A stretch of 64,000 nucleotides of DNA from Saccharomycopsis phalli. Taxonomy: Eukaryota > Ascomycota > Saccharomycetes > Ascoideales > Saccharomycopsidaceae. The stretch lies in the NCBI GenBank assembly GCA_020342235.1, contig CP073213.1:784501-848500 (forward strand), read 5' to 3'. Below, in pieces: positions 8,979-62,119 of the stretch (the first letter of the stretch is position 1; every line of letters starts with the position of its first letter). The notes under the pieces were generated by a model, which did no database searches, was not told the origin of the DNA, and was given only the letters and a program-made list of their open reading frames with translations. Both the position numbers and the translations under genes were made by a program.

Positions 8979-9782
8979 ATGAACACTTCTATTCTCATCG
9001 CTCTCATTGCTGCCTTGACTGTCCAAGCAGCTCCATTCTCAACTACCACCAACACACTCACCACCACTTTAGTTACTCCAAATGAGTGTGGAACAACATG
9101 CGGGACTAAAACCACTGCCACTGATGACGGTCCTACCAGCTTTCCTTACTATGGAGATGTGGGCTACGTTAACGCCTATGACTTCTCTAATGACGATGAT
9201 GCAAACATCGGCGTGTCTGATCTCTTGAACAAACAGAAGAGAGACGAGACCAAGCAAATGGTTGACGTTGGCACTCAGACTGATTCTGGTGAATCTGACG
9301 AAGCTCCAGATGCTAGTGATGACTGGACTGGAGGTGACGCTTCAACCTGGGATGCAACTGATGACACTACTGACTCTGTGGATGTTGGAAAGAGACAATT
9401 TTTCAGAAGACTGCTAGACGATGACACTGTCCCTTCAACCGACAACACTGATGCTTCATCCGACGATGTGCCTCCAGAGCCAGCATCTTTGAGTTTTGAC
9501 ATGTTCTCTGCTGACGGTAACTACACTGACTACGAAGACTCTGATTACATGGACTGGAATTCTGACAACGACTCCGATGATGCTCCAGCCCCAGCCACTG
9601 ATTTGAAAGAGACTATCCCAAAGAGTCAATTATCCAAGAGAGGTGATGATGAAAAGACTGACAAGACTGACAAGACTGACAAGACCGAAACCGACTACCC
9701 AACCTTTGAGGGAGACGAGTATGTTATTCCAGGTACCGATTCCGCTGAGGAAACCGACAAGGACTTTGCTGCGTGGGTTTAA
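8979..9782 (+). CDS. Secreted acidic protein with several Kex2-type sites
   Basis: The protein has 267 residues with a signal peptide (MNTSILIALIAALTVQA, probable cut before APFST). A Ser/Thr-rich stretch with three cysteine-containing motifs (NECGTTCGTK) follows. Dibasic sites lie at 87-88 (KQKR), 138-139 (VGKR), 143-144 (FFRR) and 220-221 (LSKR), which would yield several very acidic Asp/Ser/Thr-rich peptides. A short K-T-D repeat occurs near 226-236. No transmembrane segment or GPI signal is visible at the C-terminus (it ends DKDFAAWV). I do not recognise a family. The layout is that of Kex2-processed secreted proteins; a structural role or peptide release are both possible. Confidence 0.7.
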   Translation: MNTSILIALIAALTVQAAPFSTTTNTLTTTLVTPNECGTTCGTKTTATDDGPTSFPYYGDVGYVNAYDFSNDDDANIGVSDLLNKQKRDETKQMVDVGTQTDSGESDEAPDASDDWTGGDASTWDATDDTTDSVDVGKRQFFRRLLDDDTVPSTDNTDASSDDVPPEPASLSFDMFSADGNYTDYEDSDYMDWNSDNDSDDAPAPATDLKETIPKSQLSKRGDDEKTDKTDKTDKTETDYPTFEGDEYVIPGTDSAEETDKDFAAWV

Positions 9783-18341: not shown

Positions 18342-19460
18342 TCAAATTTCCTCTCTGGTGTTTTTCTTTCTAGGCCACATGTTTGGAAGAGGAATCAACT
18401 GGAACCGAGGCTCCACGCACCTCTCCACAAACCAGTTCTGCAACTGGTTTTCAATCAAATAGGAAATCCGTGGTACGTTTTCAAGTTTCGAGCGTGCTCC
18501 AATTAACGATTCCGTCTTAAATTCCAAGCGATAGTCCGAACTGAATCCAAGTCTGAGTACACCCCCCAAGCGTGTCAGTGAGTCTGATGGCTGGGTATCA
18601 AGGGACATGGTTAAGCAGCCTGAAAACCGTACTATGGACACGGATAATTTTATAGGCAATGCAGCGGTCAAGAGTTTGGGCTTGTTGATTAAGATTTTGG
18701 TCTCGATAGCCAAAGTGAGCGTATCAGCCAAGTCGACATCGATCTTGGCCTCCAACTTCCCCGGTTGTCGTTTTACGATTCGACAGTTGCTGAAAATTGG
18801 GAAGTCATTGCCGATGTTAATTTCCTTGATGTTGATGTTGTCGAGCCAATCCGGGATGGCGTTTTTCTCCCCAACAAGGTATTCGTTTAACGAGTCGATC
18901 ATGTTGTTTTCGTATAATGCCTCTGCACGGAACTGGGTGATGATTTGGGCAACAAGCACATTGAACCAGTCCAACGACTCTGTTTGGTGGGTTGCAACAT
19001 CATAGTAGGTTTTTTCTAAGATTGTGTTGATGAATGCTTCTCTGTCGTCCTCGACTGAGTCTGAGCTGCTGGAGTTATTCTGCGTTCCAGATCCCTTTAT
19101 TGAGATTCCGTTGCCGTTGATGACGGTTTCCTTGGTGATGAGCTTGCCCTGAGCTTTTGTCGAGACGGGCTTTTTCACAGACTCGGAAAAGACAAAGAAC
19201 TTGATGAAGATGACGACACAGAAAATGACAGAGAATTGGCCTAGGATAAATCCCTTTGTGAAGCTCAAGACCGTGTTGCTCTTGTTGAGGTTTGCGTTCA
19301 ATGACAAGTGATTTTCCAAGTATTCATCCAAGGCTCGGTGGTCCAATATGATTCCCGTGGGACTGGGGTAATGAGGCAACGTGTTGGATGCGGTGAAGGT
19401 GTCGGAAGATACTGGGGTGAAGATGTCGCTGGCTTGACGTAGGGAGTTGATTTCAGCCAT
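18342..19460 (-). CDS. MMM1: ERMES complex subunit Mmm1
   Basis: The protein has 372 residues. A short lumenal N-terminus is followed by one membrane anchor near 70-92 (FTKGFILGQFSVIFCVVIFIKF), with FTKGF-LGQ-S being the Mmm1 signature, then a Ser/Asn-rich linker and an SMP lipid-transfer domain (about 155-365; SLDWFNVLVAQIITQFR, IDVDLADTLTLAIETK, LPIKLSVSIVRFSG, SYLIENQLQNW). Mmm1 is the ER anchor of the ER-mitochondria encounter structure and works with Mdm10, Mdm12 and Mdm34 in phospholipid exchange. No CTG codon seen. Confidence 0.95.
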   Translation of the reverse strand: MAEINSLRQASDIFTPVSSDTFTASNTLPHYPSPTGIILDHRALDEYLENHLSLNANLNKSNTVLSFTKGFILGQFSVIFCVVIFIKFFVFSESVKKPVSTKAQGKLITKETVINGNGISIKGSGTQNNSSSSDSVEDDREAFINTILEKTYYDVATHQTESLDWFNVLVAQIITQFRAEALYENNMIDSLNEYLVGEKNAIPDWLDNINIKEINIGNDFPIFSNCRIVKRQPGKLEAKIDVDLADTLTLAIETKILINKPKLLTAALPIKLSVSIVRFSGCLTMSLDTQPSDSLTRLGGVLRLGFSSDYRLEFKTESLIGARSKLENVPRISYLIENQLQNWFVERCVEPRFQLIPLPNMWPRKKNTREEI

Positions 19461-20387
19461 TGGAGGAATAGTTTGTACCGGGGTGGGTTGAAGCTGTAAA
19501 ATATGACGATGTTGATTTCTATTATAGCTGGTGTCTTTTGCGATGTTGCTAGTGCTTGGTGTTGTGTAATATTTTTACTAGATGCGTGGTTCCATAGATT
19601 GAGTTTTCATGTGGATGAATTTCACTAGTAGAAATTTTGCAAGGGAAATTATGCAATGGAAATTTTGTAATGGATTTTGTAATGGATTTTGTAATGGAAA
19701 TTCTGCAATGAAAAATCTGATATCTTGACATTATTTTTGCATCTGCTTATTTTCTCTTTGGTATATATTTCTGGCAAGCGTCTGGCTTGTCATGAGCCTG
19801 TAGAGCGTAATTCACAACTTGGACATCATGGGTAGCGATTTAGTACCAGGAATCGGTTAAAGATTGACAGTGGCATGGTTTAGCTATACAATTTACATTG
19901 TTGCGGAGCGGGTCTATCTTTGTAGATTTTGGCTGTGATAATTTCACCAGGCTAGTAGTTTCCAGGGGTGTATTTCATGAGACATCAAGTTATAGTGCCG
20001 TGGATCTGGACTGATGCACACTGATATGCCATGTAGAATTGCCAGGAACTGCTACGTAAAGCAACTACAATGGCACTACATTCGCTGGGAGTGTAAGTGT
20101 CGGTAGTTTATTGTTGGAGCGAAAGAGTGCTAGAAGAATACGGCATCAGAAGATAACATTGCTAGAAGGCTGGAACATTGCTAGATGTTGCTAGATATCA
20201 CTGACATTACTAGAATATTACCGAATATCACCGACATCACTAGAACATTGCTGAACATCACTAACATCACTAGAATATTACTGAACATCACTGACATCAT
20301 TAGAACATTGCTGAACATCACTAACATCACTAGAATATTACTGAACATTGCCAAACATTGCCGGAAAACATGGCTAGAAGAATCACC
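19461..20387. other. 0.93 kb spacer with two repeat arrays
   Basis: No gene seen. At about 19625-19720 a unit like GGATTTTGTAAT repeats. A larger array near the right end is listed separately. Confidence 0.6.
20178..20352. repeat. 30/60-bp higher-order tandem repeat
   Basis: A 30-bp unit of the form ACTAGAAYATTRCTGAAYAT + CACTRACATC alternates between two variants, so the period is best at 60 bp. It ends about 35 bp before the stop of the secreted-type gene at 20388. Confidence 0.88.
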
Positions 20388-20825
20388 CTATATGGGCTTG
20401 CCTGCAGATCGGAGCGGTGCGGCGGCCGGAACTGGGGCCGCCTGTACCTGAACGGGAGTCGCTGGGACGGAGCCAGGGGCCGCCTGTACCTGGGCAGGAG
20501 CGCCAGGGGCACCTGCCTGGCCCTGTCCCTGGGCCGTCTGCCAGTTCTGGTCCGGCTGGCTGGTGGTCTCAACAGCGGCCGGTGCTGCGGCCGGACTGGG
20601 CGCCCGACTGGCCTTCCACTGGGCGTACATTGAGTACGCACTACTGGCGCCCATGAGAAGCGTAGTGGCCAAGTTTCCGACACCAACGGCACCATCCATT
20701 ATTGCACCTCGTCTGGATATTGTCGTTGGGCGGTCGTCATCACGGTGATAGTGGAGCGGAACTGGTTGAGTGTTGATGAGGGTAGCTGAGACTAAAGTGA
20801 CGAGCACTACAGTCGCACTTTTCAT
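20388..20825 (-). CDS. Small secreted-type protein with dibasic site and Gly/Ala membrane segment (set member 1)
   Basis: From the ATG at 20825 (MKSATVVLVTLVSATLINTQ) the protein has 145 residues: signal peptide 1-19, a propeptide-like His/Asp/Arg stretch ending at a dibasic SRR (about 38-40), a small-residue hydrophobic segment (AVGVGNLATTLLMGASSAYSM), a basic turn, and a Pro/Ala/Gln-rich tail with APAQVQAAPG-like repeats. A TATATAAT element lies about 30 bp before the ATG. No family recognised. It is tandem with the next gene on the same strand and shares its layout with genes at 24757, 25939 and 27009. Confidence 0.65.
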   Translation of the reverse strand: MKSATVVLVTLVSATLINTQPVPLHYHRDDDRPTTISRRGAIMDGAVGVGNLATTLLMGASSAYSMYAQWKASRAPSPAAAPAAVETTSQPDQNWQTAQGQGQAGAPGAPAQVQAAPGSVPATPVQVQAAPVPAAAPLRSAGKPI

Positions 20826-20998
20826 TATCTTGGCCAAAGTGCGGGTCCAGCCAGATTATATAAGGGCCTTCCAAGGCACTGGTATGCATGACAGGGTGTG
20901 GCACGGCGATACTACAGAAGGCATTCCTGGTATTATACATTAACTTCTATCGCGAAAAACAGCACCAGAAGCGGACGGGCACGTGCGCTCAAGGTGAA

Positions 20999-21535
20999 TT
21001 ACTGCCACACAGTCGAAAAGGTGCTTGGTGTAGCAACGAAGGTAAGCCCAGAGGCTTGGTGGGCAATCGTCAAAGTCTGGTTCGACGCCTCGGAATGAGT
21101 CGCCTCGCCAAGACTGGTAATCATCGATCCCCGACTGACTAGAAAATGGTGCTGCAGACCCGTGGCCAGCGGGGATTTGTGTGGACAGTCGGTGTGGTTT
21201 AGTACGGACCAATTCTCGGGCGTCTTGGCACCATCTGTAGGAGCCATCACCACCAAGGTCAGCTTTTCTATAATTGTAGTGGATGGTCGGGCAGTAACAG
21301 TGGTGGTCTGGAGCTTGGACTCAGTGACTATCACGGGCTCGGGTTTCTCGCCAAAGATTTGTTTACTCAACAAGTACGACGAGTACATCATGATTCCTGA
21401 TCCAAGGTATCCTATCATGCTGTCGGAATTGAGAGCACGCTTCAGCTTATCTTCTTCCTCCGTCCTCTCGTCTGGATCCAAGGCAAAAATCACCGACAGT
21501 AGCACCAAGAAATAAATGAAATTCTGGCCAAGCAT
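20999..21535 (-). CDS. Small secreted-type protein with dibasic site and membrane segment (set member 2)
   Basis: The second in-frame ATG (21535, MLGQNFIYFLVLLSVIFA) is preferred because a TATATA element sits at 21572-21578, only 13 bp from the first ATG but about 37 bp from this one. The protein has 178 residues: signal peptide, acidic propeptide ending KLKR (about 32-33), a Gly/Ser/Tyr hydrophobic segment (MIGYLGSGIMMYSSYLLSK), then VTESKLQTTTVTARPSTT and a Ser/Thr-rich tail with NWS, NHT and NQT sequons. No family recognised. The dibasic site, hydrophobic segment and TVT motif repeat in genes at 25939 and 27009. Confidence 0.65.
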   Translation of the reverse strand: MLGQNFIYFLVLLSVIFALDPDERTEEEDKLKRALNSDSMIGYLGSGIMMYSSYLLSKQIFGEKPEPVIVTESKLQTTTVTARPSTTIIEKLTLVVMAPTDGAKTPENWSVLNHTDCPHKSPLATGLQHHFLVSRGSMITSLGEATHSEASNQTLTIAHQASGLTFVATPSTFSTVWQ

Positions 21536-21993
21536 TAATGAATAGCAGTAATTGCACATACAAATGCCAGCCTATATACTCTGACACAATCCATAAACGG
21601 CGCGGCCGCTAGCATCCACCTAGCTGAAAAATTCCTCACTCGCGCCACACGATCCGATACTTCATGTCACAGAGTGGCTGACAATATGTATGCGAATATT
21701 CAAGGGTCACAACCGAATATTGAGTGGTCCAGACCATTTATTCACATGGCCTTGGACACAATCCGGTCCCTCCGGTTTCCTACGCCCCACTGCCCTCATC
21801 CTTCACCGGCTCATTTACAATTTACCCTTGACTTTATTCCATCGTACCCGTTTATTCCATCCATCAGAATTATAGCATGGCAGATCTTTTTTTTTTTCCC
21901 GCAAAGTTCCCCTGATTCATGGAAAGATCAAAAGTATGCTCATGCATGCTTGGTTTTCTTGATTTATTCTGTCCGTGTCTTTTCCGTCACTAA
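21536..21993. other. Divergent spacer upstream of YPP1
   Basis: No gene seen. It contains a NotI/NheI-like GC patch (GCGGCCGCTAGC near 21602) unusual for the AT-rich spacers, and a T-tract near 21887. Short frames here lack family features. Confidence 0.5.
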
Positions 21994-24570
21994 ATGGACA
22001 GTGATTTACATCTCCTATTGCTTCTGTATTATGGCGGCTGTTTCACGTCTTATGCGACTAACTACTATTTGTCGTCCCGATTAATTAATGACAGCCAGTT
22101 GTTCCAGATCCTCGCCATCGATGATAGCTTGACTTCCAGCTTGGAAACAAAGATGATCACTCCGTTAGACAGCCAGCTGTCTGACCACAGCAAGGTATCA
22201 GAGCTCCTTGCAAAATTAATCAAATTGTCCCCCACGCTGGCCCATGAGTTGGTCAGCTACAATTTACTTCATGGTCATATCCTGTACTTGCTCAATGACA
22301 ACACAACCGCTCTTGAATACCTTGGTCGGATAGAGGTGAACGACCTAAAACGTTCCAGTGACTCTGAAGCAGAAAGTGACATCTTGGAAAACTATTACCA
22401 GTACTGCTACATCAAGAAAATCGTTCTCCAGACATTGATATCCAAGGACTTGGACCAATACCACGAGTTTCTCAATAAGCATCTAGCGGGATCGCCAATT
22501 CTCTCCAACATCATTGCAAAAAAATGGTTAACCATCTTTGTCAACTCATATTTCAAGGCATTGTACCGCAAGTCGCCCATCACCTTTGAGTCGCTCCAAA
22601 AAAACATTGACAAAAACCCTAGAGTGTTGATTCTTTTGAGCAATTACTTTTACAACAACTTCTACAAATACCTTGACCCGCAGTTCAAGCCAGATTTCCA
22701 ACGGTACTTCTCCGAATACATCAAGTCGGAGTTTTACAATAGCAACTTAAAGTTTCCAAGGGCCAGTGAAAATAATTACATATTGGAATCTTTCATCTCC
22801 GATGTTGTCACCTCGGCCAAGGCAGTTCATTCATCACGCCAGTTGTTTGACTACAAAAAATTGCAGCAGTTGCTTGACTTTTCCTTAGAGAAGACATACC
22901 ACTCCATAAAAATCTTCAACAGCCTTCTTCATGTCAAAATCTGGAACCACACTCTGCACACTGACGTTACTGAGGTCATTGCTATTTATGAGAGCTTTAA
23001 AAACTTTTACAATTTAAATCTAGTCAAGGCACACAAAAAAAGCGAAAAGCTTCTCGATGAAGACCTCTTGAGTTTGATTGACACTCTCAGTGTGTTCCTA
23101 AGCTTCATTCTTAAACATCCAAGCGGAAAATCGGCTCGCTTTGATAAGTTGATTGCCGTGGTTAAAATTGATTTGGCAGAGGCATTGACCCAGGTGGAAA
23201 ACTTGACCAATATCGACATCCACGAGATCTCAAACATCACTACAAAGTTGGATTCGGACAAGCACCTAAATATGATTTTATCTGAGGGCTACTACCAGTT
23301 GATCAACATTCACTTGTATCAGTTGAAGACCGACCCAATATTCTTTGAACAGTTTCTCGACTCTCTGGAGTTGAAGGCGAGCTTCCTCAACCAATTTTTC
23401 AAGTGTTTGTTGTTGAACGACTTTAATAATTTAAACTACTATCTCCAGTTTATCGTTGTGGTGCTCAAGTTTTATGAGTTTGCCGACCACAACAAGATCA
23501 TCATTTATATAATCCAGCATGTGATTGCCAAAGACCCACAATATTGGCAATTTCTCAACTTAGTGGCCATTCTTGCAAACAGTGACTACAACATTGAATC
23601 AACTGGCAACAAGTCCTTTGGCTTGGCATTACTTGACAACTCCGTGAATCTCATGCATATATTTGTCCAGGACAACTTGAAGATGTTTGGGTCAAACTCA
23701 GAGAAGATGCAGAAGTTGAAGCTGGACTTGATTGAATTGAAAATCACCCAGTTGACGATAATCTCTGAGAAGTTGGGGGCTAGTCAGGGTCTCGAGAAGT
23801 TGCCTGAATTGTTTGAGTTAATGCAACTGGTGTTGACACAGGAAATGGAACTTGTCAAGACCAACGGTAATGGGGAGCAGAGGGATAAATCACGTTTCTC
23901 CAAGCAAAAGAAGACGGTCACGCCCCAGATCAACCACCAATCTGAGGGGAACAAGTTCACCAATCATATTCTCCAAAAGGTGTGGATCTTTGTCGCGGAT
24001 ATTTACTTGGCCGCACAGCTCTACAAGGAGTCTGAAGATGCTATCATTGAGGCCGAGAAAGCTAATGGCACTAACGAGTTAACCTGTCAGCAGTTTGCGA
24101 AATTGCTCATCCTGACCGTGGACGAGAAGGACGGGTCCAAGAAGTTGGCGATTTATAACGAGCTGCAAAAGTCTCTTGACTACTCAAACGCGAAAAGCAG
24201 TGTAAATTTTAGTGGCATCATCACCATGAGTGAATTGGTTTTGAGCGAAGAGGGAAGAATCCGTGATTTTCCATCTGAAGCCGTCAACGATATTGATTAC
24301 CACGAAGAAGAGCTGCATGTGATGGCTGGCGCTCTGATGTTTCTCAACGACGACGACAAGTTCTTGGCGTTATTGCGGGTGAAAGGGTTGATTGAAAATA
24401 ATTTGGTGCACAACTATGACTACTTTAACAACGCCAAGGTATGGGAGAACTTGAGTAAGTTGTATGAGGCATTGGGTGACGATGACAACTATGAAAAAGC
24501 GTTGGAACGCGCAATCGACATTCAGGAATCCATGTTGGTGAGAAGCTTAGAGTTTCTTGTGGACATTTAA
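21994..24570 (+). CDS. YPP1: Ypp1-like cargo-transport / Stt4 PI4-kinase complex subunit
   Basis: The protein has 858 residues; S. cerevisiae Ypp1 has 817. It is nearly all helical and Leu/Lys/Asn-rich, with TPR-like helix pairs, most clearly at the C-terminus (WENLSKLYEALGDDDNYEKALERAIDIQES, split here only for reading as WENLSKLYEALGDD and NYEKALERAIDIQES). Internal markers include HEEELHVMAGALMFLNDDD and VWIFVADIYLAAQLYKESEDA, typical of the TTC7/Ypp1 family. Ypp1 with Efr3 anchors Stt4 at the plasma membrane for PI4P synthesis. The first 25 residues are weakly conserved in type, so the true start could differ; I found no convincing intron upstream. Confidence 0.75.
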   Translation: MDSDLHLLLLLYYGGCFTSYATNYYLSSRLINDSQLFQILAIDDSLTSSLETKMITPLDSQLSDHSKVSELLAKLIKLSPTLAHELVSYNLLHGHILYLLNDNTTALEYLGRIEVNDLKRSSDSEAESDILENYYQYCYIKKIVLQTLISKDLDQYHEFLNKHLAGSPILSNIIAKKWLTIFVNSYFKALYRKSPITFESLQKNIDKNPRVLILLSNYFYNNFYKYLDPQFKPDFQRYFSEYIKSEFYNSNLKFPRASENNYILESFISDVVTSAKAVHSSRQLFDYKKLQQLLDFSLEKTYHSIKIFNSLLHVKIWNHTLHTDVTEVIAIYESFKNFYNLNLVKAHKKSEKLLDEDLLSLIDTLSVFLSFILKHPSGKSARFDKLIAVVKIDLAEALTQVENLTNIDIHEISNITTKLDSDKHLNMILSEGYYQLINIHLYQLKTDPIFFEQFLDSLELKASFLNQFFKCLLLNDFNNLNYYLQFIVVVLKFYEFADHNKIIIYIIQHVIAKDPQYWQFLNLVAILANSDYNIESTGNKSFGLALLDNSVNLMHIFVQDNLKMFGSNSEKMQKLKLDLIELKITQLTIISEKLGASQGLEKLPELFELMQLVLTQEMELVKTNGNGEQRDKSRFSKQKKTVTPQINHQSEGNKFTNHILQKVWIFVADIYLAAQLYKESEDAIIEAEKANGTNELTCQQFAKLLILTVDEKDGSKKLAIYNELQKSLDYSNAKSSVNFSGIITMSELVLSEEGRIRDFPSEAVNDIDYHEEELHVMAGALMFLNDDDKFLALLRVKGLIENNLVHNYDYFNNAKVWENLSKLYEALGDDDNYEKALERAIDIQESMLVRSLEFLVDI

Positions 24571-24756
24571 TATATAATTAATACACAGTAGTTGTGTTCT
24601 GTAACTTTTGCATATCTAGTTGGCATGCTGCGCCGTCAATCCCCACTAAGATGTGCGGCCTGTAGTAGAGTGAGAATTTAATTATGACAGTCTGAGTGCC
24701 GTACAGAAAAAAAAATGTAATAAATAGCCTCTGAACGGACCTTTTCAGGGCCCAGG

Positions 24757-25044
24757 ATGTTTTTTAACAGTTCCACTAAGATCTGTTTGGTGGTTTGGGG
24801 GTTGTGTTCCTGGGTTTCGGTTGCAGTTGTACCCCTCAAACCATTGATCTCTGATAAAATAGACAGCGACGTGACTACTGGAGCAAAGTATGTAATGTAT
24901 GGTTTTGCGGGCCTTGGTTTGTACCAAGTAGGGAAGGGAATCGATGCTTTGAATCCGCCTGTGACAGTGATAGTAACGTCTACTGCCTCTGTCAGCAGTA
25001 GCACATCTGGAGTGACTATTGTAGCACCGTCAAAGGCCTCTTAG
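24757..25044 (+). CDS. Small secreted-type protein with Gly membrane segment (set member 3)
   Basis: The protein has 95 residues. An N-terminal hydrophobic segment (MFFNSSTKICLVVWGLCSWVSVA) resembles a signal peptide; a short polar stretch follows without an exact KR site (ISDKIDSD), then YVMYGFAGLGLYQVGKG, and a tail with VTVIVTSTASVSSSTSG. The Gly-rich hydrophobic segment followed by a beta-type T-V-T tail matches the genes at 25939 and 27009. No family recognised. It lacks the dibasic site that the other four have. Confidence 0.5.
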   Translation: MFFNSSTKICLVVWGLCSWVSVAVVPLKPLISDKIDSDVTTGAKYVMYGFAGLGLYQVGKGIDALNPPVTVIVTSTASVSSSTSGVTIVAPSKAS

Positions 25045-25938
25045 TGGATACAGGTTAATACTATGAACTGTTGTATGTATATAGTAATTTATTGAAATAT
25101 GGAACTCAGAAGGTTATTCTACAACATGCCAAGGCGGCTTGCTTCTGATTTATACATGAGGAAATTTATTGAATGGTAAATAGTAAGGTAATAATAATTT
25201 CATTTTCTATTTGGCAGTATTGAACGGCAGAATATGGTGTATTATGTGGTGGACAGTGCCGTTTAAAGCACACAGTGTAGTTGAGGAGGTGCTTATTCGG
25301 TTAAAAGGAATATATTCTTGAAAGAGCTTAGGATACTTTGAGTTCTGGAAAGTAGAGATTGTTTGTGATGGTAAAAGAAGTAATTTCACATTTTTCACGC
25401 TTTGGATCTTTGTTGCCAACGTGTTTCGTCTGGGAAGCTAGATCCACTGAGTAATCGCGAAATCAAGCAGTTGACTGTCTTGGGGCTACATGTCCTCTGG
25501 TAAAGGAGCTTGGCATTGTCCTTGTGAACATTGAAAAGTCTTGTTATGATCGGTAATGATGTATAATCTAATTTATTTCTCATTCATTGAAGTATGCATC
25601 TATGAGAGACCTGTGCCCTCCGGCTCTATATTAAGGTACACTGGCATAATACTACGGCTCTATCGTACGATATATTTATAAGTGGACAAAAAAACTTCAT
25701 TTAGCTGGAGTTACCATGGAACGTTACCAATTCCCATACGGAACAGTTATTTATAGAAGGCCCGCCCTGCATTATGGTCGATTGACCCTTCAGGTACGGC
25801 ACAATTGATCCACGTTTGTTGCTTCAACATTCCTATGGTAAGTTAGTACATGGCACGGAAGTGTTTCTCTCCTCTATATAAACTGGACTTATTTACACTT
25901 GTAAGCATCATCACAAACATCAACTTTTCACACTTACA
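25045..25938. other. 0.9 kb spacer upstream of the 25939 gene
   Basis: No gene seen; the short frames present lack ATG starts or family features. A TATATAAA element at about 25875-25882 lies some 60 bp before the ATG at 25939. Confidence 0.55.
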
Positions 25939-26274
25939 ATGCAATTCAATCCAGCCATCTTAATCTTGACTCTCGGTGCCCACTTGGCCTTCGCTGAAGA
26001 CACTGAAGACATTAAAAACGAAAAGAGAGCATTTGCCGGAGCCGGTGGCCGTGCTGCTGCTGCTGGTATTGGGCTTGCTGGTGCTGGACTTGCTGGTTTT
26101 GCTGCCTACGGAATGGGTAAAATCGCATATGACATTGGTCACAAGGACGGAGCCAAGGATGAGAGCCAGCAAAACTCCAGATTGGTATCAAGTGTCAATG
26201 CAATTGTCTCTACCATGGCCCCAGTGGCTACTGTAGTGGTTACCACCACTGTTCAACCAACCCTGTCGGTGTAA
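25939..26274 (+). CDS. Small secreted-type protein with KR site and Gly/Ala segment (set member 4)
   Basis: The protein has 111 residues: signal peptide MQFNPAILILTLGAHLAFA, an acidic propeptide (EDTEDIKNE) ending at KR (29-30), a glycine-zipper-like segment (AAAAGIGLAGAGLAGFAAYG), a charged spacer (YDIGHKDGAKDESQQNSR) and a tail with TVVVTTTVQPTLSV. Small residues at every third to fourth position in the hydrophobic segment suit helix-helix packing in a membrane. No family recognised. This is the clearest example of the shared layout. Confidence 0.7.
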   Translation: MQFNPAILILTLGAHLAFAEDTEDIKNEKRAFAGAGGRAAAAGIGLAGAGLAGFAAYGMGKIAYDIGHKDGAKDESQQNSRLVSSVNAIVSTMAPVATVVVTTTVQPTLSV

Positions 26275-27008
26275 TGGTTATTCTAGTTTTCAATTTTACA
26301 TTCTTCATTTCGCATTTTATGGATTATTAGATTCAATTTATGTCTATTCACACAACTGTAGCTATATATGTATCCATGTGTCACATAAGAGAGCCATACC
26401 CCAGTAGTGAAGCCGAATCTCAAAAGATCTGCACACATAGCATCTGGCTATTGGAGAACTGATGACTACGTAAATCTACATTCCTCCTGCAACTGAGCTC
26501 TTTTTAGGATATGTGCAAGAGGCATCCTTTTTGATCCTCTTGATATGATGTGTGCCTGCCTTGTAGTCATTTTATCACTAATGCTCTGAGCGAAAAATGT
26601 TGCAGATGCTCATGTTCTATTCATTGTAGGTTGAGTATTATGTTGAGTTTTATATTGAACTTTGTAATATCGAGCTTTATAATATCGAGCTTTATAATAT
26701 CCAGCTTTATAATATCCAGCTTTATAATATCCAGCTTTATAATATCCAGCTTTATAATATCCAGCTTTATAATATCCAGCTTTATAATATCCAGCTTTAT
26801 AATATCCAGCTTTATAATATCGAGCTCTATAATATTATAATATATCCCACCTTGTTCTTATCTTACCCCACCTACTCGTCATATTCCGCTTGACTCCTAA
26901 TTTGTTCTCTTTATCAGTGGTAAATGGCACAGGCTGATGCATGGCAATGCAGATAACTCACGGCAACACTGGCTATATAACACTCGTCCTTTCCTGGACT
27001 CCCAAAAT
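26275..27008. other. Spacer with a 15-bp minisatellite
   Basis: No gene seen apart from the repeat, which creates a spurious open frame (FIISS repeats). A TATATAA element at about 26973-26979 precedes the ATG at 27009 by about 30 bp. Confidence 0.6.
26671..26835. repeat. 15-bp minisatellite, 11 copies
   Basis: The unit CCAGCTTTATAATAT is repeated 11 times in exact register; the first two and last copies read CGAGC instead of CCAGC. The eight inner copies are identical, which suggests recent expansion. Confidence 0.96.
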
Positions 27009-27419
27009 ATGAATCCCTATTCTATAATACAAGTCTACTTTCTCATCGCCGTCGCCTCCTCTCTAATTCTTAGTGAGCCCAATATCGAAAAGAGAGAGCC
27101 CGAGGGCCCCGACTCTCCAGCCAAGGCTGCTGTCCAAATTGCTGCTGCGGGACTTGGATTTCTAGGATTATTTGCTGGGGCTAGTTTAATTGCCAACCAT
27201 GTACGGAACAACCGAGCATCAAGTGCAGTACTACAGTCATCACTTTCGTCGGCCAATTCAGTGATTGCAAGCTACTCGAGCTTTGAAGCGACATATGTGA
27301 GACCTACAGTGACCGTAACTATCACCAGCAGCAACGACAGCAGCTTGCAAACTGTCGTTGGAAAAGAAGTCACAACCAACTCTCAGACTGTGTTTATAGC
27401 CCAGCTGACAATAGTATAA
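27009..27419 (+). CDS. Small secreted-type protein with KR site and membrane segment (set member 5)
   Basis: From the ATG at 27009 (MNPYSIIQVYFLIAVASSLIL) the protein has 136 residues; an in-frame ATG upstream (26937) would put the TATA box inside the coding region. Signal peptide, then EPNIEKR with a KR site (about 27-28), an Ala/Gly hydrophobic segment (AAVQIAAAGLGFLGLFAGAS), a polar Ser/Asn-rich stretch, and a tail with VRPTVTVTITSSND. The layout matches the gene at 25939. No family recognised. It lies 82 bp upstream of CDC33 on the same strand. Confidence 0.68.
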   Translation: MNPYSIIQVYFLIAVASSLILSEPNIEKREPEGPDSPAKAAVQIAAAGLGFLGLFAGASLIANHVRNNRASSAVLQSSLSSANSVIASYSSFEATYVRPTVTVTITSSNDSSLQTVVGKEVTTNSQTVFIAQLTIV

Positions 27420-27500: not shown

Positions 27501-28133
27501 ATGACCGAGGAAGTAACCAAGCAAGTCCAAGAGTTGACCGTAGAGGATAAGGAGGCCGCTGGATCGGGGACCATCTTGACCACTAAAGAATTGACTCACT
27601 ACCATAAGTTGAACGGAAGATGGACCTTGTGGTACACCAAGCCAGCGGTAGATAAGAGCGAGTCATGGGCGGATTTGCTCAAGTCGGTGGTGTCGTTTAC
27701 TACTGTTGAGGAATTTTGGGGAATCTACAACGCGATTCCAAGCGCCAGCGAATTGCCAATCAAGTCGGACTACCATTTGTTCCGTGACGACATTCGTCCT
27801 GAATGGGAAGACACTGCCAACGCCAAGGGAGGCAAGTGGGCGCACCAGTTCAAGGACAAGAAGCGTGTTGACATCAACGACATTTGGTTGCGAGCGTTGC
27901 TCTCTGCTATTGGGGAGACCATTGAGGAGGATGAGGACGAGGTCAATGGGATTGTCTTGAATGTAAGAAAGGCGTTTTACCGTGTCGGGTTGTGGACAAA
28001 GACTTGCAACAAGCAGTCTTTGGAGCCGGTTGGCCACAAGTTCAAGCGAGTCTTGAAGCTCACTGACCTTGACAAGTTGGAGTTCACCTCTCACGAGAGT
28101 GACACCAAGAGCACCAAGCCATTTATAGTTTAG
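27501..28133 (+). CDS. CDC33: Translation initiation factor eIF4E
   Basis: The protein has 210 residues, near the yeast length of 213. Cap-binding tryptophans are in place: HKLNGRWTLWYTKP, VEEFWGIYNAIP, RPEWEDTANAKGGKW and IWLRALLSAIGE. The eIF4G-binding face (VEEFW) is intact. eIF4E binds the m7G cap and recruits eIF4G. One copy is seen here. Codon use is typical of a highly expressed gene, with TTG for nearly all leucines. Confidence 0.97.
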   Translation: MTEEVTKQVQELTVEDKEAAGSGTILTTKELTHYHKLNGRWTLWYTKPAVDKSESWADLLKSVVSFTTVEEFWGIYNAIPSASELPIKSDYHLFRDDIRPEWEDTANAKGGKWAHQFKDKKRVDINDIWLRALLSAIGETIEEDEDEVNGIVLNVRKAFYRVGLWTKTCNKQSLEPVGHKFKRVLKLTDLDKLEFTSHESDTKSTKPFIV

Positions 28134-28319: not shown

Positions 28320-31300
28320 ATGATACGTCTTCAGCGACTCCAGGCGCAGCTCAACGGTATTAATGAGCTTATCCACTCAAGTCTTTTGATGGGCTACTAC
28401 ACGCGGCTTGTCCACTTTATTTCCCAGAGGCCTCAGCTAGCCATACTTTTGCCAGGGTGCCTAGTGTTTGTCCTAGCATACCCCGCGCTATTTACGCTAT
28501 ATACCACGCCGGATCTCGTTTCAACGTCGCCAATGACCGGATTCAAGCACATTAGTGTGCTTCCAGCGGAAAGTACCCCGGATTTTGCCCTCAAACAGCT
28601 CTCGTTCCGGCGAGCGAAAGGGGTTCTTACCCACGACTTTTTATCGAGCTGCTTGGATGTCCAGACACAAATACTCCACGGAATCAACAGCTCGGACTAC
28701 GCCTTGCTCTCGGTTTTGAACTTCTGGAACAACTCCGCGGAAATCTTGGCAAACGACCACTGTCTTTTGCGCACAATCCAGCAGAACATCAAGGACCGGT
28801 TGCAGCCCGCTTCGGACGCCTCGCAGCTTCTAGGCGGGGTCACCCGTCTCAATGGTGCCGTCAGTGGCGCCAGCTCGCTTACCGTGTCGATATTTCTCCG
28901 CTCCGACTCGGTATTGGCATCCGAATGGGACACCCGCTTACAGGCCGCCGACTTGGTGCTGCCGAACCGCACCCAGAAAAACTTCCAGGTGGTTCTCACC
29001 TGGATGTCGGCCAGCGAGTACATGGTATTGCTCTGTGTGAAGCTCGTGACGATAACGTACTTTGCGATTTCGTTGCTCAATGTCCATGGTCTCCGGTCCA
29101 AGGTCGGCCTTTTGTTTGCGTTTGCCGTGGAAATGTCGCTTTCGCTCTTGGCCTCGGTCACCGTGTCATTCTACATGTTCCAGCGACTTGATTTTCTCCA
29201 GGTGCCCATCCAGATTTTGATGTTTGCTGTCACAGTGGTTGGTGTTGAAAACATGTTCCGCATACTTTCTGCGGTGTCCAAGTCCAAGGAGCAGCTTCGG
29301 CTGCCGCAGAAATTTGCTCGGGCCGTGGGAAGACCTTGTCTTGTATCGTCGGCGGTGATTCTTGTCAATCTCATATTCCTAGCTGCAGTGGTGCCGTTTG
29401 TGCCGCACTCGACGCGCCAGTTCTGCGCATTTGCCGCGATAGCGTTGGCCATTGACCATTTTCTCCACTTGACGTATTTTATTGCGGTTGTGTCGATTGA
29501 TTTGCGGCGCCAGCACAGTTTTGCCAACCCGATCATCAGGACCACCGAATCGGGGTCGTACATCTTCTCCACGATCCTTGGACTCAACAGCAGCTCGAAG
29601 CCGACCAGCTCGTGGTTCAGGCACATTCTTGCACAGGTCATTTTGAAAATCAAGCTTCCATTCACATCGTCGTTGACCGGAGCCCTAATTATGATTTCCG
29701 TGATTGTGCCGCTCAATGTCAGCTGGATCAACGTCAGGTGGCTGCCAAAGACCGAGGGGTCCCTTGACAGAAAGTCACTAGGCATTATCATTGGGCGACT
29801 AGTGAGTTTGGGACAGTTTCCCGGAATCAGGCGCGACTCCAATTCTGTCAGGCTACAAGTAGCAGTGGACGAGCCAGTGTATCCTGGGGCAGACTCCACG
29901 ACCACGTACCAGTTTGACATGTACTACATCTTGGAGTTTTTCGCGTGTCTTGCGTTTGTTGTCGCCACATCACTTATGGTGTTAAAATATTACTCGCAGC
30001 AACTCTCACATGAAGACCCGGTCGACGGTCCGGACGATGTGCTTGAGGACCGACAGAGTTTCAGCAGCATTGATCTTGTCCATGGGCACAGTCTAGATGT
30101 GGTGAAGGTCAACACTGACAAAGGCTCGCCGTACATTGTGTCGATTGGCATGGACCACAATGTATGTATGTGGACGCCCTCGGCGAAGCCGTTGAAGAAG
30201 CCGTTGGTGCTTCCCATTGACCGCTACGACTGGCCGATTGTGCACTCGGTGACGTCGCCTGGCGGAAAATACGCCGCGCTCTTTTCGAAACGAGGACATG
30301 TCAAGTGTTGGTCACGGGACAGCGAGCAGTGGATGTGGACGGTTGAAGTGGCAGCCGCCAAGAATTCTGTGCCGTTGGAGTCGTTGTTCCGGCAAAAGAC
30401 CGCCGAGAGAGGAAAGCCGGTGGACGACAGCGTGGCCACAGAGTTGGTGTTTGTCTATGGGTCAGGGGAGATCTTCAGCCTTTCGCTTGCCAGTGGCACG
30501 CTAGAGGAGACGGCGATTTCCCGAGAGCCATTAAACAGTGCCAACTTTCTCGAATCGCCGCGGGTGAACGACCGGCTTGTGTGTTCGACCAAGCTGGGCC
30601 AGCTAATTGTGGCGACGGCAGTGAACAACAAGTGGCGGGCACGCACGATGTTCATCCAGGAGGAACGCTACAACCGGGGCAAGAGTCTCATGACACCGTT
30701 GGCGATGAAAAACACCCACAACAACCGTCGGGGCTCGGTGAACTCGATGACCAACGTGCTCATCCCGCAGAACATCCCGCCGCACGAGTTTGCCAACTCT
30801 GCCGTGGTCACAGTGCAGTTTGTCGGCATGATTCTCCGCACCTACGGAGTGGTGGCCGAGTTGCTTGATGTGCAGACCGGCACGTTGGTGAAACGGTTCC
30901 ACATTGGCCAGTTCCAGAAGGACACTCTCCAGGTGTTCCACGACCAGCCGACGCACTGCCGGTTCTGCGGCTGTGCCACCATCTCCTCGTTTTCCATCGC
31001 CTATACCGAGTTGGACTCGAGCACTCTCATCATGCACACGTTTTCGATCGACAACCGCGCGAAAAACAACATCTGTCTCCGGGTGGAACGTGATCCACGC
31101 GAAACCCGGTGTCTTGGCTTCGACTCGGTGGCCGAACACCAACACTGGTTGGCCAACGTTGAGGTCTGGAACTTGACCGACTTGAACATGGTCATTGGCG
31201 TGAAACGCAGGGACCCCGAGGAGTCGGGCCTCCGGTTCCGGGGGAAGCGCAGCACCCACATCTCCGACTTGTGGGAGGGATTCACCATGAACAGCAAGGG

Positions 31301-31526
31301 ACGGGTGACGTACCACGAGATACCCAACGGCGAGGACGAGGGGCTTCTTGTGAAACGGCTCCGGGGCAACGCGCGGTACGGCCACAAGTCGATTGTCGTG
31401 TCGTTTGGCAACATCATGAAGGTGCTTTTCTTGGGTAACGACAACTTGATTTTGGACGTCGAGGAGGACGTGGCCAAGCGCAGCGGGTTGTCGTTTGTCA
31501 ATCGCCGCCGGGGACGCAGGGCCTAG
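28320..31526 (+). CDS. SCP1: Scap-like sterol-sensing protein (SREBP cleavage-activating type)
   Basis: The protein has 1068 residues, close to S. pombe Scp1 (about 1085). A first membrane segment lies near 40-61 (LAILLPGCLVFVLAYPALF), then a lumenal loop with NDHC and glycosylation-type sites, a sterol-sensing domain of five segments (about 235-410; EYMVLLCVKLVTITYFAISL, VGLLFAFAVEMSLSLLASV, ILMFAVTVVGVENMFRIL), two further segments near 455-475 and 545-565, and a C-terminal WD-repeat half from about 595 (GHSLDVVKVN, IVSIGMDHNVCMWTPS, GHVKCWSRDSEQWMW). Fungal Scap escorts the SREBP factor from ER to Golgi when sterol or oxygen is low. SREBP itself is not in the window. NCR1/Patched-type proteins lack the WD half. 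Confidence 0.85.
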   Translation: MIRLQRLQAQLNGINELIHSSLLMGYYTRLVHFISQRPQLAILLPGCLVFVLAYPALFTLYTTPDLVSTSPMTGFKHISVLPAESTPDFALKQLSFRRAKGVLTHDFLSSCLDVQTQILHGINSSDYALLSVLNFWNNSAEILANDHCLLRTIQQNIKDRLQPASDASQLLGGVTRLNGAVSGASSLTVSIFLRSDSVLASEWDTRLQAADLVLPNRTQKNFQVVLTWMSASEYMVLLCVKLVTITYFAISLLNVHGLRSKVGLLFAFAVEMSLSLLASVTVSFYMFQRLDFLQVPIQILMFAVTVVGVENMFRILSAVSKSKEQLRLPQKFARAVGRPCLVSSAVILVNLIFLAAVVPFVPHSTRQFCAFAAIALAIDHFLHLTYFIAVVSIDLRRQHSFANPIIRTTESGSYIFSTILGLNSSSKPTSSWFRHILAQVILKIKLPFTSSLTGALIMISVIVPLNVSWINVRWLPKTEGSLDRKSLGIIIGRLVSLGQFPGIRRDSNSVRLQVAVDEPVYPGADSTTTYQFDMYYILEFFACLAFVVATSLMVLKYYSQQLSHEDPVDGPDDVLEDRQSFSSIDLVHGHSLDVVKVNTDKGSPYIVSIGMDHNVCMWTPSAKPLKKPLVLPIDRYDWPIVHSVTSPGGKYAALFSKRGHVKCWSRDSEQWMWTVEVAAAKNSVPLESLFRQKTAERGKPVDDSVATELVFVYGSGEIFSLSLASGTLEETAISREPLNSANFLESPRVNDRLVCSTKLGQLIVATAVNNKWRARTMFIQEERYNRGKSLMTPLAMKNTHNNRRGSVNSMTNVLIPQNIPPHEFANSAVVTVQFVGMILRTYGVVAELLDVQTGTLVKRFHIGQFQKDTLQVFHDQPTHCRFCGCATISSFSIAYTELDSSTLIMHTFSIDNRAKNNICLRVERDPRETRCLGFDSVAEHQHWLANVEVWNLTDLNMVIGVKRRDPEESGLRFRGKRSTHISDLWEGFTMNSKGRVTYHEIPNGEDEGLLVKRLRGNARYGHKSIVVSFGNIMKVLFLGNDNLILDVEEDVAKRSGLSFVNRRRGRRA

Positions 31527-59482: not shown

Positions 59483-62119
<2,637 letters not shown>

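Follow-up and report, generated by a model that had tools for sequence, protein, structure and literature searches.

Five small secretory-type precursor genes clustered within 7 kb in Saccharomycopsis phalli, including one homologous pair

A 64-kb stretch of contig C2 (CP073213.1) of the yeast Saccharomycopsis phalli, hereafter the window, was analysed; the genome comprises 14.15 Mb in 8 contigs. Five small genes of this window, designated g1 to g5, had been predicted from the letters alone to be a dispersed, fast-evolving set of secreted-type membrane proteins. All five open reading frames (ORFs) were found where they had been placed, each with an ATG start. However, the genes are not dispersed but tightly clustered, all five inside 7 kb (window coordinates).

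20388–20825, minus strand: g1, 145 amino acids (aa); signal-type start, RR, small-residue hydrophobic stretch, Pro/Ala/Gln-rich tail
20999–21535, minus strand: g2, 178 aa from the likelier (second) ATG, 186 aa if the ATG ends at 21559; signal-type start, acidic pro-part, KR, hydrophobic stretch, Ser/Thr tail
24757–25044, plus strand: g3, 95 aa; signal-type start, no dibasic site, hydrophobic stretch, Ser/Thr tail
25939–26274, plus strand: g4, 111 aa; signal-type start, acidic pro-part, KR, Ala/Gly-rich hydrophobic stretch, tail
27009–27419, plus strand: g5, 136 aa; signal-type start, pro-part, KR, small-residue hydrophobic stretch, Ser/Thr tail

A signal-type N-terminus was recognised in all five by a simple hydrophobicity rule. 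Dibasic sites (KR, RR, KK or RK) numbered 0 or 1 per gene, with no second site in any. As predicted, a KR or RR was present in g1, g2, g4 and g5, once in each, and absent from g3, and a second, small-residue-rich hydrophobic stretch followed by a tail was present in every gene. The Ser/Thr character claimed for the tails was not borne out in g1, whose Pro/Ala/Gln-rich tail has 12% Ser/Thr in its second half. The claimed length below 180 residues applies to the other four genes and to g2 from its second ATG, but not to g2 from its first.

20709–20714, minus strand: RR of g1 (aa 38–39), its sole dibasic site
20628–20693, minus strand: second hydrophobic stretch of g1 (aa 45–66)
21437–21442, minus strand: KR of g2 (aa 32–33 in the 178-aa form)
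21365–21421, minus strand: second hydrophobic stretch of g2
24883–24933, plus strand: second hydrophobic stretch of g3
26023–26028, plus strand: KR of g4 (aa 29–30)
26053–26115, plus strand: Ala/Gly-rich hydrophobic stretch of g4 (aa 39–59)
27090–27095, plus strand: KR of g5 (aa 28–29)
27126–27194, plus strand: second hydrophobic stretch of g5 (aa 40–62)

A layout test was applied to C2:684501-948500 (264 kb) and to five 10-kb pieces from C1, C3 and C5. Its requirements were a 9-mer close to the start that is hydrophobic and carries no charge, a further hydrophobic stretch of 17 residues lying within residues 29–91, a tail of at least 20 residues, a length of 80–200 and at most 30% overlap with an ORF of at least 250 aa. 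In the 264 kb, 16 small ORFs passed the signal part and 7 passed the whole test, including g1 to g5; one of the two others has a dibasic site, few small residues and an internal repeat, and the second has no dibasic site. In the extra 50 kb, the signal part was passed by 2 ORFs and the whole test by 1, again without a dibasic site. When a small-residue share of at least 0.35 was added, g1 to g5 alone were left in both sets. An earlier, looser version had been passed by 20 ORFs outside long ORFs, with g1, g4 and g5 included and g2 and g3 not. Because the rule was written after the looser version and after the five genes had been seen, part of its exactness was built in. The clustering depends less on this after-the-fact rule and is less open to that objection; the chance of all five falling within 7.03 kb of 314 kb, given that one is placed, is about 2.5e-7.

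Pairwise local alignments of the five proteins (10 pairs) were performed with the first 18 residues removed and 300 shuffles per pair. The g4-g5 alignment scored 55, compared with 29.9 (standard deviation (sd) 5.1) for the shuffles, of which 0/300 scored as high, and it is colinear, beginning at the EKR site, crossing the Ala/Gly stretch and reaching the Val/Thr run of the tail. By their sequences, g4 and g5 are homologous along their length. This was the only significant pair out of ten, consistent with the low similarity originally noted among the five; apart from two pairs involving g4 that are considered below, the remaining seven gave p 0.087–0.97. When all frames of the 264 kb and seven other loci were searched, the best match of g4 after itself was g5 (E 0.069), and g4 was the second-best further match of g5 (E 0.076), after a poly-Ser stretch on C6 (E 0.0059). 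Duplication at the DNA level was not visible among the cluster genes. Two tandem-repeat arrays, with units of 15 bp and 30 bp, lie beside cluster genes at 26640–26840 and 20159–20370; such arrays could favour local duplication.

Each of the five was also used in a whole-genome protein search up to E 10, two of these searches being run in translation table 11 and later analyses in table 12. g2, g3 and g4 matched only themselves, and g5 and g1 gave one further low-complexity match each, both of which were rejected: g5 matched a poly-Ser stretch of C6 (E 6.3), and the Pro/Ala/Gln tail of g1 aligned with a C1 stretch that has two stops (E 0.08). Because scoring is limited to the top candidates of a permissive first pass, strongly diverged copies could be missed. 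Local profiles searched against the 264 kb and seven loci gave, among the matches listed, none further better than E 0.18; the match with this value, at window-relative 94507, does not have the appearance of a secreted-type ORF and was set aside. The original prediction had anticipated many paralogues, and no convincing one was found outside the cluster, either in the whole-genome searches or at the promoter-element sites described below. By its own yardstick of paralogues elsewhere, the claim of a dispersed family therefore fails in the sequence searched; a fast-evolving family, with which the g4-g5 kinship and the low similarity agree, stands only as a local one. In Pfam nothing was obtained below E 0.16 for the five (sub-threshold matches only; g3 E 0.16, g2 E 0.17). 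Against PDB sequences, a g5/g4/g2 profile had no match up to E 10 and g3 none up to E 1, and a match of g1 to pyruvate carboxylase (E 0.48–0.75) was taken as chance. The absence of a Pfam family and of a convincing PDB sequence match supported the original impression that no named family fits, and literature searches listed no paper devoted to such a family, judged from titles and abstract openings.

The tails of four members carry one or both of two short motifs.

24961–24978, plus strand: Ile/Val/Thr run VTVIVT of g3
26230–26253, plus strand: Ile/Val/Thr run TVVVTTTV of g4
27306–27326, plus strand: Ile/Val/Thr run TVTVTIT of g5
21029–21043, minus strand: C-terminal motif TFVAT of g2
25015–25029, plus strand: C-terminal motif TIVAP of g3
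27387–27404, plus strand: C-terminal motif TVFIAQ of g5

The Ile/Val/Thr run was defined as a 6-mer built exclusively from V, I and T that contains two or more T and two or more V/I. It was present in three of the five cluster genes (g3, g4 and g5; not g1 or g2), in agreement with the T-V-T type motif claimed for three of them, compared with 3 of 116 long ORFs (63,123 aa) nearby, and all three of these long ORFs begin with a signal-type stretch by eye. The C-terminal motif T-[IVF]1-2-[VI]-A-[TPQS], which was chosen after reading the alignment and was one among four patterns tried, was present in g2, g3 and g5 and in 0/116 long ORFs. According to a review of fungal adhesins (PMC6023273), adhesin amyloid cores are short (5–7 residues), those of Als and Flo adhesins are Ile/Val/Thr-rich, amyloid predictors that work from sequence call too many cores, and dibasic motifs occur in 15 catalogued adhesins, where their role is posed as a question. 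The cluster proteins resemble the adhesins treated there in their signal-type start, dibasic motif (4/5), Ile/Val/Thr run (3/5) and, except in g1, Ser/Thr-rich tail; they differ in their size of 95–178 aa and in having no GPI-like end, Cys-rich domain or Pfam domain. It is mainly because the Ile/Val/Thr run keeps company with signal-type starts, together with this adhesin context, that we place the tail, provisionally, outside the cell.

Promoter elements were found upstream of four genes.

20845–20862, minus strand: promoter element of g1, TATATAATCTGGCTGGAC, with TATA 37 bp from the ATG
21567–21578, minus strand: promoter element of g2, TATATAGGCTGG
25875–25888, plus strand: promoter element of g4, TATATAAACTGGAC
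26974–26999, plus strand: promoter element of g5, TATATA-N14-CTGGAC

The TATA box predicted for four genes was found as TATAWA 25–65 bp before the ATG in g1, g2 (43 bp, from the second ATG), g4 (62–64 bp) and g5 (35 bp); g3 has no TATA within 150 bp. The same arrangement was seen in 16 of the 116 long ORFs (binomial 0.0016). TATATA-N0-20-CTGGAC has three sites in the 264 kb, each 35–64 bp before the ATG of g1, g4 or g5, and TATATANNCTGG has four, three of them before g1, g2 and g4, where a first-order chain expects 0.1. Genome-wide, the former pattern gave 39 rows, corresponding to 35 distinct sites once nested rows were merged; the occurrence of 3 of the 35 within about 6.7 kb has a Poisson probability of 7e-7 for a pattern that was itself read off these promoters. 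All 35 sites were followed downstream (minimum ORF length 30 or 50 codons, ATG within 160 or 120 bp), and by eye no ORF with the five-gene layout was found downstream of the other 32. Two of these 32 precede ORFs that are signal-type by eye. One is a GH81 glucanase gene on C1 (L066 1071–3500, cut at the locus end), with TATATAGCTGGAC 33 bp before the ATG, FKR directly behind the signal peptide and, by eye, a T-I-F-V-A motif as in the cluster. The second is an ORF on C3 (L057, minus strand), with TATATAACGCCTGGAC 35 bp before the ATG, whose first 151 aa matched nothing in Pfam; by eye it resembles the pro-part of a subtilase. Two further downstream ORFs (L042 and L055) start with a hydrophobic stretch that was not taken for a signal peptide. 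TATATANNCTGG has 46 sites genome-wide versus 40 in the control, and the downstream part was viewed for 9 of the 46. At C2:181880-182128, four TATATAGACTGG matches at 79-bp spacing probably represent a tandem repeat. No other shared upstream word was convincing when corrected for the 979–1340 words tested per length.

The insertion energy of the second hydrophobic stretch was roughly estimated, giving 0.78 for g5, 2.07 for g4, 3.8 for g1, 4.1 for g2 and 4.7 for g3, compared with 1.1–2.5 for the signal peptides on the same estimate. On these values a spanning helix is plausible in g5, borderline in g4 and unlikely in g1, g2 and g3, so that the originally predicted membrane nature is doubtful, g5 alone coming near a spanning helix. 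FXYD and Pmp1-type small regulators provide the model for a different explanation, in which the five would be type I membrane proteins of small size: once the signal peptide had been removed and Kex2 had cut, the stretch would span the plasma membrane, with the basic residues behind it and the tail in the cytosol, and the protein would regulate a larger membrane protein. The basic residues seen by eye just behind the stretch in all five, as well as the values of g5 and g4, would accord with this explanation, which we nevertheless regard as doubtful, since g1, g2 and g3 score worse than signal peptides and the restriction of the Ile/Val/Thr 6-mer to signal-start ORFs among the long ones fits an outside tail.

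The single dibasic site also bears on the relation of the five to known Kex2 substrates. In PMC6339444, KEPs are defined as proteins in which cuts at KR/RR or KK give four or more fragments and no fewer than three similar motifs. The cluster proteins are like these KEPs in combining a signal-type start with a KR/RR site in a small precursor, but they have at most one dibasic site and hence no repeated core peptide between sites. According to PMC7329392, KEPs are few in Saccharomycetes and mostly annotated as mating factor, and Ece1, with its several sites, yields eight peptides; the cluster proteins share with Ece1/candidalysin a Kex2-type site before the hydrophobic stretch, but with at most one site the stretch is not cut on its C side. 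It is conceivable, though improbable in our estimation, that the five encode secreted membrane-active peptides, in which a hydrophobic N-terminus freed by Kex2, together with basic residues, would disturb the membranes of competitors or mating partners in an Ece1/candidalysin- or killer-like manner. In candidalysin a hydrophobic stretch is followed by basic residues, as it is in the cluster proteins, and the order of a mostly acidic pro-part, KR/RR, hydrophobic stretch and basic residues in four of the five, along with the low similarity among them, would suit such peptides. However, with one dibasic site the stretch would stay attached to a tail of about 50–120 residues in those four, and no immunity-type partner was noticed, although none was searched for. 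A mating-type function had also been mooted, and nothing was seen in its favour.

PIR wall proteins carry a signal peptide, a Kex2-type site and the repeat Q-I/V-x-D-G-Q, and are located in the wall. The cluster proteins share the first two features, and a wall location is proposed for them; unlike PIR proteins, they have no Cys-rich tail, and the PIR repeat, the only kind of internal repeat sought, was present in 0/5. They also differ from hydrophobins, with Cys counts of 0, 1, 2, 0 and 0 in g1 to g5, the pair in g3 being at aa 10 and 17. No GPI-like C-terminus was detected by a simple rule, the best 12-mer in the last 25 aa having a mean hydropathy of 1.0–1.2 in four proteins and of 1.92 in g4, where the Val/Thr run is included. 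By the features tested, the five are not KEPs, Ece1-type or PIR proteins.

The interpretation we favour, to which we assign a probability of roughly 0.4, is that the locus is a local cluster of small secretory precursors that would at least in part form one family, arisen by duplication and fast diverged, and that would act as surface or wall proteins, perhaps self-associating. Local duplication followed by fast divergence would have taken place in a yeast of the CUG-Ser type. If expressed, the products would enter the secretory pathway by their signal peptides, and Kex2 would trim the short, mostly acidic pro-part in four of the five, leaving a mature protein of about 80–145 residues in those four with the small-residue hydrophobic patch near the new N-terminus. 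The tail would stay outside the cell, bearing in three members an Ile/Val/Thr run as in fungal wall adhesins that cluster, and self-association of the products at the cell surface or wall might alter surface hydrophobicity or cell-cell contact. A bolder version appears quite remote: an unnamed fast-evolving family in which Kex2 would expose a hydrophobic, small-residue N-terminus like a fusion peptide on a small self-assembling surface protein, the members being co-expressed from a single locus through a shared TATATA-CTGGAC core promoter, for cell-cell contact or recognition between strains.

Several observations weigh against the favoured interpretation. Kinship of g2 is suggested by a g2-g4 score of 40 versus 26.8 (sd 4.2; p 0.007), and g3 and g4 scored 42 versus 27.3 (sd 5.3; p 0.03) in an alignment confined to 21 residues of the tail, but neither similarity stayed significant after ten comparisons, and a g4+g5 profile did not have g2 among the matches listed, to E 4.8, in the 264 kb and seven loci. 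g1 has no significant similarity to any other member (p 0.12–0.97), no Ile/Val/Thr run and no C-terminal motif. In one relaxed version, the C-terminal motif occurs in 3/116 long ORFs. The layout limits, the motifs and the promoter pattern were all picked after the five genes had been seen; TATATA-N0-20-CTGGAC is not enriched genome-wide (39 rows versus 58 for the reversed control), and no alignment of the promoters extends beyond the TATA element. The basic residues that follow the hydrophobic stretch would be in keeping with a tail on the inner face of a membrane. Because there is no GPI-like end, PIR repeat or Cys-rich part, the common wall-anchoring devices are missing. Finally, codon usage places the five between the 4th and 80th percentile of a PABP/eIF4E-like score, and because codon bias failed to tell real ORFs from overlapping ones, it lends no independent support to expression or coding. 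That g4-g5 is the sole similarity surviving ten comparisons, and that g1 stands apart from every other member, would also be expected of a mixed assembly, in which g4 and g5 are a duplicated pair and g1, g2 and g3 are unrelated orphan or young genes with general secretory features. Such an assembly is unlikely in our judgement, in view of the clustering of the whole layout, the C-terminal motif common to g2, g3 and g5, TATATANNCTGG common to g1, g2 and g4, and TATATA-N0-20-CTGGAC common to g1, g4 and g5.

Homology searches readily overlook secreted proteins that are small and diverge fast. The MMM1 and eIF4E genes that flank the cluster provide a syntenic handle, by which the same interval could be read in sister species for selection and turnover. 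If surface assembly is true, a very small wall or surface protein without a GPI-like end or PIR repeats would be new for such yeasts. The interest is modest and lies mainly in a locus that comparative genomics could settle quickly.

18342–19460: MMM1, flank of the cluster
21994–24570: 858-aa protein with sub-threshold TPR matches (Pfam), between g2 and g3
27501–28133: eIF4E, flank of the cluster
28320–31526: SCAP-type protein; sterol-sensing domain E 1.6e-22, SCAP_N and beta-propeller matches weak

Further genes of the window encode COG5, DAHP synthase, a class II tRNA synthetase, a Raptor-type protein, poly(A) polymerase and others. SCAP has presumably been lost from most Saccharomycotina, and here a SCAP-type gene is present in a probable CTG-Ser yeast. 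A secreted-type ORF of 267 aa at 8979–9782 has no Pfam match up to E 0.001. The Candida mating-type locus carries a PAP-OBP-PIK arrangement, and the poly(A) polymerase gene at 60431–62119 prompted a look for such a locus. ORF N-termini were viewed by eye, with no profile search, on the right side only, to window-relative 97 kb; PAP/OBP/PIK-like neighbours were not recognised there, and the candidate was dropped.

The poly(A) polymerase and Raptor genes were also used to examine the reading of CTG. They hold 10 CTG codons, 5 of which were compared by eye with solved structures. In poly(A) polymerase, codon 297 is opposite Ser and codon 205 opposite Asn; in Raptor, codon 846 is opposite Ser in both chains, codon 418 is opposite Ala and codon 359 lies in a poorly conserved part. 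These alignments suggest that CTG is probably a Ser codon in this yeast. Reading it as Ser alters 5 residues of g2 (first-ATG form), 1 of g4 and 1 of g5.

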